A stretch of DNA of 37,345 nucleotides, taken from Bacillus sp. (in: firmicutes). GTDB lineage: Bacteria > Bacillota > Bacilli > Bacillales > Salisediminibacteriaceae. This document shows, piece by piece, positions 1,386 through 30,895 of the stretch (position 1 is the stretch's first letter; every line of letters begins with the position of its first letter). The notes beneath the pieces were generated by a model, which saw nothing but the letters and a program-made list of their open reading frames with translations, was not told where the DNA came from and did no database searches. The stretch spans positions 1 through 37,345 of the forward strand of contig JAJOJL010000128.1 in NCBI GenBank assembly GCA_021208645.1. Direction: 5' to 3'. A program made the position numbers and the translations under genes.

Positions 1386-3679
1386 TTATTGTGACCAATG
1401 AACGCGAACATCTATTACCCCATCTTGAACATGAAACATAACTGCACCGTGTTTGTCAGTACGTAATAACGGGATGCCATTTTCCTCTAATCTATCTAAT
1501 ACCTCCCCATGAGGATGACCAAACCGATTGTTTCTCCCTGCCGACACTACGGTAACCATGGGCTCAAAATGCTCTAAAAAAGCTTGTGAAGTAGACGTTC
1601 TGCTTCCATGGTGAGCAATCTTTAATACGCCTAGTTCAAAGGCTGGGTAATGGCTTATTAACCTATTCTCCGCAGCTTCCTCAATATCACCCGTGAATAG
1701 AAAAACCACATCCTCAATAACAGCTAAAAGTACAATAGAAAGATCATTTTCTTTTACTTCAAAGCCGGTAGGATTCATGACATAAAAGATGTTTGCAGCA
1801 TCCGTCCACCTATCACCTTCACTGGTCCAAACAATCGGAACCCCATTTTCTTCAGCGCACGATAATGCCGCTCTCCCTTCCGTTGATACTTGAGGAGACA
1901 AAGGGTACATGACTTTTTTTACTGCAAAGGTATCGAGAAGAAAACAAGCTTCCCCAACGTGGTCTGTATGTCCATGGGTAAGAATCATTCTGTCAATGGT
2001 GCCAATGCCTTTCCCCTTTAAATAAGGCTCAATGACCCGTCTACCAGGTCCACTGAATTCCCTATTTTCCCTTTCATCTTCATTCCAACGAACAACTCCT
2101 CCCGTGTCGATCAAATAAACAGCTTTTCTCCTAGGTAATTCAATGACAATAGCGTCTCCTTGCCCTACATCTAGAACTGTAATTGTTGCTTCCCTTTGGA
2201 AATATGGATGAAGGAGTTGAAATGCAAAAGCAAAGCATAATAAAACCATAGAAACACTGATCAATCTCCTACTTTTCCATTCTAACGATACAAATAAAAC
2301 AATGATAAATACCATCATCACTAGTAAAATTAAGGTAGAGGGCTTACCAAATACGAGCATATCCCAAGACATGGCTGCTACTTTATCCAAAAAATAATGA
2401 GCAAAGCTTAGACTCTTTTCACTCAGTAAAAATATCGGTGTTGACAGTTTTGGTGAAATGCTAGCTAGTATTACCGTAAAAAAGGATAAGGGTAAAATCC
2501 ATAAAGATATAAATGGGATAAATAAAAGATTAATTGGGATAGCAAGGATGGAGAATTCATAAAAATGAAAAATTATTATGGGCAACGTGATCAACTGAGC
2601 AACAAATGTCACTTTTAACAAAAGCAGTATTTTATTTTGTTCTCTAAACAACTTATTGGACAAAAGCAATGCATAGCTAGTCAGGAAGGAAAGTTGAAAG
2701 CCGAGGTGAAATAATATGAATGGGTCATAAAGAAGATAAGCTAAACAAATAAACGTAAGGAGATTAATTCCTCTCACCGGCATTTTTAACGTTTGCATCA
2801 ACAACGCAGCAAAACACAAGAGGGAAGCACGTACAACAGAAGGAGCACCTCCAGCTATCATAATATAAAAAGGTAGCATGACCATTAACATGATGTTTGC
2901 CTTTTCCCTCGTAATACCTAACCGGATTAATACATAATAAAAGGCAAAGGTTACCATTCCCACATGAAGACCTGAAACAGCCAAAAGATGAAGTACCCCT
3001 AACTGCCGATAATTGTTTATTCTTTCTTCAGTTAAAAACGACCGTTCGCCATAAACTAATGCAGCCATTATAGCAGACGTTTCCCTGTGGTTACTTTCCA
3101 TTAATTTTTCTATTCCCTTTTCCCTTATGGAATAAATGAATCCACCATTGGATTCACTACATACCATTTGGTTGTCAGTAATTCTTAAAAGCCATTGAAT
3201 TCCTTGTTTTTCTAATAATCTTTATAATTAAATGCATACGGGTTACGTTCTGTTTCTGGTCGTTGTAATTGTCCCGTGAAAGCACATCTCCCTCCATAAG
3301 TAGGTACTGCCGTTTGAGAATTAGCAAACACTTGAATTTTTCCACCTGCATCGAGCTTAACTTGAAAAGACCATTGCATGTTATTGGTCATTGTTGGCTC
3401 TGATACGACGACCCCAGTAAATTGGTTCTCCTTTCCTGTAAGATTGTTTTCTCCTTGATATACATGAAAACCGTAAAGAAAAAAAAGCAAAAAGACGAGG
3501 ATATAACCAGACCCTAATAACCAACTTTTTTGTCCTTTCCATGAAAGGAGGAGGGGAACTATTCCTGAAAGAAGAAAAGTCCAGCCCCATCCACCATTAC
3601 CGAAAAAAGCGAAAAGTAAAGCACCGACAGCTGCAAAAACAAAAATATATGATCGCTGTAGCAACTTCATCAACTCCAT
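1386..3679 (-). CDS. comEC: DNA internalization competence protein ComEC/Rec2 (one frameshift)
   Basis: Forms the membrane channel for uptake of single-stranded DNA in natural competence. The N-terminal part (3679-3212) has several membrane segments and a DUF4131-like region with TGQLQRPETERNPYAFNYKDY. The second part (about 3220-1386) holds the multi-spanning Competence domain (LLAVSGLHVGMV) and a C-terminal metallo-beta-lactamase-like domain with LTHGHTDHVGEA and IAHHGSRTS. The frames join if one T is restored near 3213: the first reads NYKDY-stop, while the next frame gives LEKQGIQWLLRITDNQ with no gap. The rebuilt protein is about 764 residues, close to B. subtilis ComEC (776). It lies 167 bases downstream of comEB. 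A single missing T suggests a sequencing error rather than gene decay, but this is not proven. Confidence 0.9.
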
Positions 3680-30480: not shown

Positions 30481-30527
30481 AGAAAAGGATGACTCAAAAG
30501 GGTTTTTATAGCCCTTTTAGACATCCT
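30481..30527 (-). terminator. Terminator of the selenoprotein gene
   Basis: AGGATG (30486-30491) and CATCCT (30522-30527) enclose AAAAGGG/CCCTTTT arms, making a two-part stem. On the minus strand it ends with TTTTCTTG. It lies ten bases after the selenoprotein stop. Confidence 0.75.
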
Positions 30528-30536
30528 CGTTGTTAA

Positions 30537-30820
30537 TCAGCAACAGTCACTTTCATTACCAGTTATCATTAACCCCTTACCTTCTGGCGTTTCCTTACAC
30601 TCCAAGTAAGACCTTTCGTCTGGGCGTAAATCATTTCATCAAAAGCAACTTGTATGCCGTTAATCTCTTCTAGAACATCCGTTTCTGCTGTCTCATCCAG
30701 AGACAAGCCTAGTTGTGGACCGCCTCAGCCCATTCCCGCAAAGAAAACTCGCACATGCTGTACACCATTTTCAGACATTACATCTTGTAAAAACTCTTTT
30801 GCTTTATTGGTAATATTCAT
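30537..30820 (-). CDS. HesB-like selenoprotein (in-frame TGA at Cys position; one frameshift)
   Basis: A short iron-sulfur-type (IscA/HesB-like) protein of about 94 residues. ATG 30820 follows GAGGTGAG. The frame reads MNITNKAKEFLQDVMSENGV, then QHVRVFFAGMG, then TGA (30727-30725, codon 32), then GGPQLGLSLDETAETDV and FDEMIYAQTKGL. Homologues have Cys at codon 32 (FAGMGCGGP); HesB-like proteins are a known bacterial selenoprotein family. Near 30608-30611 one T seems to be missing: restoring it continues the frame as YLECKETPEGKGLMITGN, ending ESDCC at 30537, the family C-terminus. A SECIS-like hairpin follows the TGA. The reading as Sec is inferred from homology plus the hairpin; selA, selB and selD are not in the window. 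Confidence 0.85.
30688..30706 (-). promoter_or_regulatory. Bacterial SECIS-like element
   Basis: On the minus strand UUGUCUC pairs with GAGACAG (7 bp, one G-U) around the loop UGGAU. The loop starts 25 nucleotides after the UGA, within the usual 16-37 range, and its second base is G, as in the bacterial SECIS consensus. It lies inside the coding sequence, as expected for SelB-dependent decoding in bacteria. Confidence 0.75.
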
Positions 30821-30895
30821 TTACTCACCTCATTACTGCTATTAGTCAATCTTTATACTAGCAATAATTTAAGGTGAACACAAAGGAATTGTATT

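Follow-up and report, generated by a model that had tools for sequence, protein, structure and literature searches.

A HesB-like gene with an in-frame UGA at a conserved cysteine position: a predicted selenoprotein gene in a Bacillus sp. genome

What does a bacterial gene encode when its reading frame is interrupted by a TGA exactly where its homologues carry a conserved cysteine? The question is raised by a small minus-strand gene in the stretch of DNA analysed here (the window: 37,345 nucleotides of a Bacillus sp. assembly), which the initial annotation described as a HesB-like selenoprotein gene. That HesB-like proteins are an established selenoprotein family agrees with three publications: a list with 11 such proteins shows that the family has been recognised since at least 2006, with three selenoproteins of three families given for Bacillales (PMC1794560), another counts 90 proteins in 86 organisms (PMC5029168), and a third lists the family with its UxGP motif (PMC13188914). 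According to a further study, mutagenesis and 75Se labelling revealed a HesB-like protein in Methanococcus maripaludis; a disruption mutant was unimpaired in nitrogen fixation, and the function is stated there as not clear (PMC11097638). In the part of the literature that we searched, no paper joins Bacillaceae with selenocysteine and selB, or Evansella with selenocysteine.

Read on the minus strand from the ATG at 30820, the gene encodes MNITNKAKEFLQDVMSENGVQHVRVFFAGMG, then TGA as codon 32, then GGPQLGLSLDETAETDVLEEINGIQVAFDEMIYAQTKG (Table 1). The TGA stands within FAGMG-U-GGP and is flanked by conserved sequence, and codons 32-35 (UGGP) supply the UxGP motif of HesB-like selenoproteins. 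Past its family-like part, the ATG frame departs from the family sequence and runs to a TAA at 30571-30569, after 83 codons. The ESDCC tail that the initial annotation had assigned to the gene exists, as does the conservation on either side of the TGA, but the tail lies in another frame, so that 30537..30820 is not one frame as had been proposed. The ribosome binding site attributed to the gene was recovered, and the same GAGGTGA precedes the gene in all ten relatives inspected. As for a terminator of its own, a stable hairpin with a T-rich stretch behind it does lie downstream (fold z -3.9, with 1 of 200 shuffles equally good), but a consensus terminator scan called none, perhaps since its limit on loop size is 8 and the loop here has 9. 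The nearest relative of the gene is found in Evansella vedderi DSM 9768 (86% identity, E 1.2e-35). Over 69 codons, the two differ by 0.06 nonsynonymous and 0.74 synonymous differences per site, the synonymous sites being near saturation; judged by this pattern of substitutions, the gene is under purifying selection.

Table 1. Features of the HesB-like gene and its surroundings (positions in the window)
Feature	Position	Strand	Remarks
Ribosome binding site GAGGTGA	30825..30831	-	identical motif in the relatives inspected
HesB-like selenoprotein gene (predicted), ATG-frame part (codons 1-70)	30611..30820	-	TGA at codon 32 taken as Sec
UGA codon taken as selenocysteine (codon 32)	30725..30727	-	TGA in 57, TGC/TGT in 21 of 78 loci
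SECIS hairpin (predicted)	30688..30706	-	stem 30706-30700 with 30694-30688; apical loop UGGAU 30699-30695; 25 nt past UGA
One-base frame break relative to relatives	30598..30611	-	one gap when aligned to E. vedderi, E. tamaricis and E. clarkii; probably an assembly error
C-terminal part, other frame, YLECKETPEGKGLMITGNESDCC and stop	30537..30608	-	agrees with C-terminus of relatives
Probable transcription terminator hairpin	30485..30528	-	T-rich sequence next (to about 30478); fold -18.2 kcal/mol

Why, then, does the gene fall into two frames? In the alignment to E. vedderi, E. tamaricis and E. clarkii, the window sequence has one single-base gap between the two gene parts, and the copies in relatives are intact, interrupted by nothing but the TGA. 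The assembly that holds the window (genome G000, of which the window is contig C135) comprises 3.95 Mb in 167 contigs and is 76.6% complete. When the proteins of the corresponding E. vedderi region were aligned to the window, about 8 of 32 other genes had frame breaks, a count made by hand from 50 query rows including shadow frames, with a ninth flagged row (MrpA) left out as a cross-match to MrpD. Breaks in other genes lie near 3215, 4165, 7660, 15227, 15693, 22154, 26057, 28000 and 29190; we take the broken genes to be ComEC, ComEB, YqeK, MrpD (twice), a PucR-like regulator, a CBS/nucleotidyltransferase gene, SigK and a coiled-coil gene. Because the breaks load unrelated genes across the window, indel errors of the assembly are favoured, and the break near the 3' end of the HesB-like gene is probably such an error, likelier than decay. 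A programmed frameshift at this point is not favoured, given the single-framed copies in relatives.

The evidence on the TGA itself comes from the exchange of codons at this position among relatives. A search of 120 genomes, that of the window included, returned a HesB-like protein in 77, some of the weak matches among these being general IscA-type proteins. Codon 32 was read at 78 loci (window included) and was TGA in 57, TGC in 14, TGT in seven and nothing else; 30 of the loci were chosen automatically and 40 further places by hand (20 with TGA and 20 without), and because sampling was thus partly by choice, the ratio of 57 to 21 is not a rate. Duplicates (L041-L044, equal to L012, L013, L018 and L024, and L011, the window itself) had been dropped before counting. 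Some of the 78 loci are one gene from two collections, hence the 52 distinct 60-base TGA stretches used below. Eight weaker matches, counted apart, have TGA at the same column in six cases and one codon later in two; five of the six same-column matches form all seven pairs of the hairpin described below and one forms four. The TGA at codon 32 is present in separate assemblies of relatives, including those of E. vedderi, E. tamaricis and E. clarkii. The placement of an in-frame TGA at the conserved Cys of FAGMG-C-GGP, as originally proposed, is thus borne out.

Downstream of the TGA, the TGA forms share a hairpin in which bases 22-28, counted from the start of the TGA, pair with bases 34-40 around a loop UGGA[U/G/A]. 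At least six of the seven pairs form in 51 of 52 distinct TGA sequences (mean 6.7), whereas the same is true of one in 21 Cys homologues (mean 2.6). Among the TGA forms, pairs are exchanged for other pairs (for example U-A to G-C at pair 27-35; G-C to U-A or U-G at 25-37), and sliding one side of the stem by 1-3 bases lowers the mean to 2.1-3.7 pairs. When codons were redrawn synonymously, 9.7% reached the pairing on average and 17.3% at most (300 trials). The loop starts with a Leu codon, and this codon is CTG in all 52 TGA sequences, compared to 30% among Leu codons overall. The part of PMC13188914 that sets out limits for bacterial SECIS elements gives a loop of 3-9 nt, a stem of 4-16 bp, a G in the first two loop positions, a spacing of 16-37 nt and an energy of -7.5 or below; the window hairpin lies within these limits, with a loop of 5 nt, a stem of at least 5 bp, a G at loop position 2, a spacing of 25 nt and -10.7 kcal/mol. 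In terms of folding energy, the 48 nt that follow the UGA do not stand out from shuffles (z -0.06; 84 of 200 do as well), the 29-nt hairpin core has a z of -2.2 against shuffles, and the lowest-energy fold of 60 nt differs from the hairpin in several relatives. The comparison of sequences shows that the hairpin, with its UGG loop and its place 25 nt downstream of the UGA, is conserved beyond what the protein requires.

Decoding UGA as selenocysteine depends on dedicated machinery, and the initial annotation had regarded selenoproteins as uncommon in Bacillaceae. This does not hold for the genomes compared here: SelB scores over the cut-off in 43 of 60 genomes searched and in 29 of 34 relatives of the same family. 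The TGA form of the HesB-like gene occurs in 33 of the 43 SelB-positive relatives (in one, G042, by a weak match that was confirmed) versus none of the 16 SelB-negative ones, an association with a Fisher p of 5e-8 that is uncorrected for common descent. A match is present in nine of the 16, in no case with TGA, and the seven of these read at codon 32 all have Cys codons. Ten SelB-positive relatives have no match to the TGA form, two members of the genus (G006 and G007) among them. All eight other genomes bearing the same genus label carry selA, selB, selD and tRNA-Sec (selC) over the cut-off, and the remaining six of them have the HesB-like gene in its TGA form. In the genome that we take as E. 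vedderi (G008), all four genes lie within 27517-40872 of one contig.

But what about the genome that holds the window? Here none of selA, selB, selD and tRNA-Sec reaches the cut-off (0 of 4), an outcome that the initial annotation had named, for selB and tRNA-Sec, as one that would speak against a selenoprotein. In our view this does not decide the matter, given an assembly of 76.6% completeness and the presence of the four genes in all eight other genomes of the genus; most likely, the sel genes are in sequence that the assembly lacks. The assembly does give weak matches to tRNA-Sec, at 39 bits and thus under the cut-off of 47; they were not counted, as all 14 control genomes also have matches in this search and only five pass. 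One flank of the sel cluster can be placed: contig C29 of the assembly matches E. vedderi from about 100 bp past the selA stop, extends 209 bp towards selA and then ends. selA is absent from these 209 bp; if the spacing were that of E. vedderi, roughly the final hundred bases of selA would be seen on the contig, so selA is farther off, elsewhere or absent. The other flank (G008:C29:8001-27900, searched as DNA) has no match in the assembly, so that one flank only is placed. Also missing, in our reading of the SelB search, is the EF-Tu-like match that other genomes have there. The contig end is no frequent repeat of the genome: apart from the stretch itself, a search with the 209 bases gave one weak match at another place and a short match of the stretch to its own inverse. 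In E. vedderi, short interspersed repeats (L091 13408-13529, 15720-15824 and 17281-17440) have dozens of matches across the contigs of the assembly.

The same assembly holds further genes of the selenocysteine type. Three formate dehydrogenase alpha genes have an in-frame TGA within NRT-U-HAPSVAGL or ARI-U-HSSTVAGL, flanked by open frames of 179/541, 199/808 and 194/808 codons; this is the usual position of Sec in formate dehydrogenase. These genes (L156, L149 and L150, on contigs C27, C166 and C11) have GGUCUGG downstream of the TGA. A scan of nine genomes of the genus for the hairpin core CTCTGGA[TG]GAG gave 59 matches versus six for the reversed control, and 30 of the 59 were inspected for a TGA gene. 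The four matches in the assembly with the window comprise the window gene, a second HesB-family gene and two without a TGA gene. The second HesB-family gene reads KSR-U-GRSKFKLTLDEL on contig C22 and has a 6-bp stem at the same 25-nt spacing as in the window. It is L177 (near 19975), and its KSR-U-G paralogue group also includes L162, L163, L171 and L182. A third HesB-like group, in other Bacillales (L157, L158, L160 and L164), carries GIG or GVG-U-GGP and forms seven of seven SECIS pairs; L159 resembles this group and forms four of seven.

Where does the window gene belong among known families? TIGR01911 (HesB_rel_seleno, motif UxGP) has the same length, the same Cys/Sec site and the same U-G-G-P motif, and ranks first or second among the NCBIfam matches of E. 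vedderi and the eight other TGA relatives tested. Its cut-off of 66.35 bits is reached neither by the 83-residue frame of the window (48.1), nor by the intact E. vedderi protein (52.0), nor by any of the eight other TGA relatives (39.5-58). Because the score is under the curated cut-off, we name the protein HesB-like and do not call it a formal member of TIGR01911. The model IscA_HesB_Se (NF038090) aligns along most of the protein in E. vedderi and the eight TGA relatives at 41.7-59.3 bits, under its cut-off of 85, as is the window frame. The gathering threshold of PF01521 (Fe-S_biosyn, the A-type carrier family; 26.3 bits) is likewise missed by the window frame (15.3) and by E. vedderi (18.1). 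The TGA proteins taken from the sister groups, one from each (L162 and L160), score under both NCBIfam cut-offs yet pass Fe-S_biosyn, with 35.8 and 38 bits. The gene is almost certainly an addition to the known HesB-like selenoproteins, in a branch that the tested models score too low.

A likeness to the A-type carriers IscA and ErpA is seen in a profile comparison: a profile of 19 relatives matches the solved proteins HI1723 (PDB 2apn) and Aquifex AQ_1857 (PDB 1nwb) over 87 positions. Codon 32 of the window family aligns with the first conserved Cys of these two proteins, so that Sec would replace Cys at this site. The IscA C-terminal tail is C-X-C. In contrast to IscA/ErpA, the tail of the window family is CC or C, and one C-terminal Cys is invariant in all 19 aligned sequences.

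We take the gene to be, with a probability of roughly 0.9, a functional gene for a HesB-like selenoprotein. This reading, which is also that of the initial annotation, is supported by the TGA/Cys exchange, by a hairpin that is specific to the TGA forms, by co-occurrence with SelB and by the other Sec-type genes in the assembly. Could the gene instead be a relic of a lineage that has lost Sec decoding, a pseudogene disabled by a stop and a frameshift? The lack of any sel gene over the cut-off in the assembly, the 209 bp of C29 without selA past the last match to the E. vedderi flank, and the one frame break in the gene would all fit such a decay. However, the TGA is common to relatives and thus no new lesion, selection on the gene is strongly purifying, and the assembly is 76.6% complete. 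Since the three formate dehydrogenases and the second HesB-family gene all keep open frames on either side of their TGA, and since frame breaks are common in the window (about 8 of 32 other genes), we judge a relic unlikely, at well under one chance in ten.

A UGA that acts as a plain stop, or that is read through as Trp or Cys, would leave unexplained why the hairpin is kept beyond the constraint of the protein in TGA forms and is absent from Cys forms, and why, among the 59 relatives compared, TGA forms occur only in those with SelB; homologues elsewhere have Cys at the site. We consider such decoding very improbable. Given the many indel-like frame breaks in the assembly, one might also suspect the TGA of being a sequencing or assembly error for a Cys codon, but the identical codon in the separate assemblies of E. 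vedderi, E. tamaricis and E. clarkii makes this explanation almost negligible. For the selenoprotein that we favour, the pathway would be as follows: SelB with Sec-tRNA would bind the hairpin and insert selenocysteine at codon 32, and the product would be a small A-type (IscA/ErpA-like) protein. As to its role, we predict with moderate confidence that Sec32 and the C-terminal Cys serve either as ligands of a metal or Fe-S cluster or as a selenol/thiol redox pair.

Finally, we would like to place the window gene among its neighbours in Bacillales. With about even odds, this order carries at least three paralogous groups of HesB/IscA-fold selenoproteins, GMG-U-GGP, KS[TR]-U-G and G[IV]G-U-GGP..L, whose SECIS elements are built alike, with CUC...GAG or CGC...GCG as the stem around UGGAU, 25 nt past the UGA, and whose scores are under the cut-offs of the named models wherever tested. 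If so, ordinary Bacillaceae would hold a largely unnamed Fe-S/redox selenoproteome, in which selenocysteine would alter the chemistry of an A-type cluster carrier. The two named NCBIfam models score every protein tested under their cut-offs, which points to a likely gap in annotation. The branch described here is spread through sequenced Bacillaceae and, together with the Cys replacements in its SelB-free sisters, offers an amenable pair of forms in which to study the contribution of selenium to an IscA-type protein.
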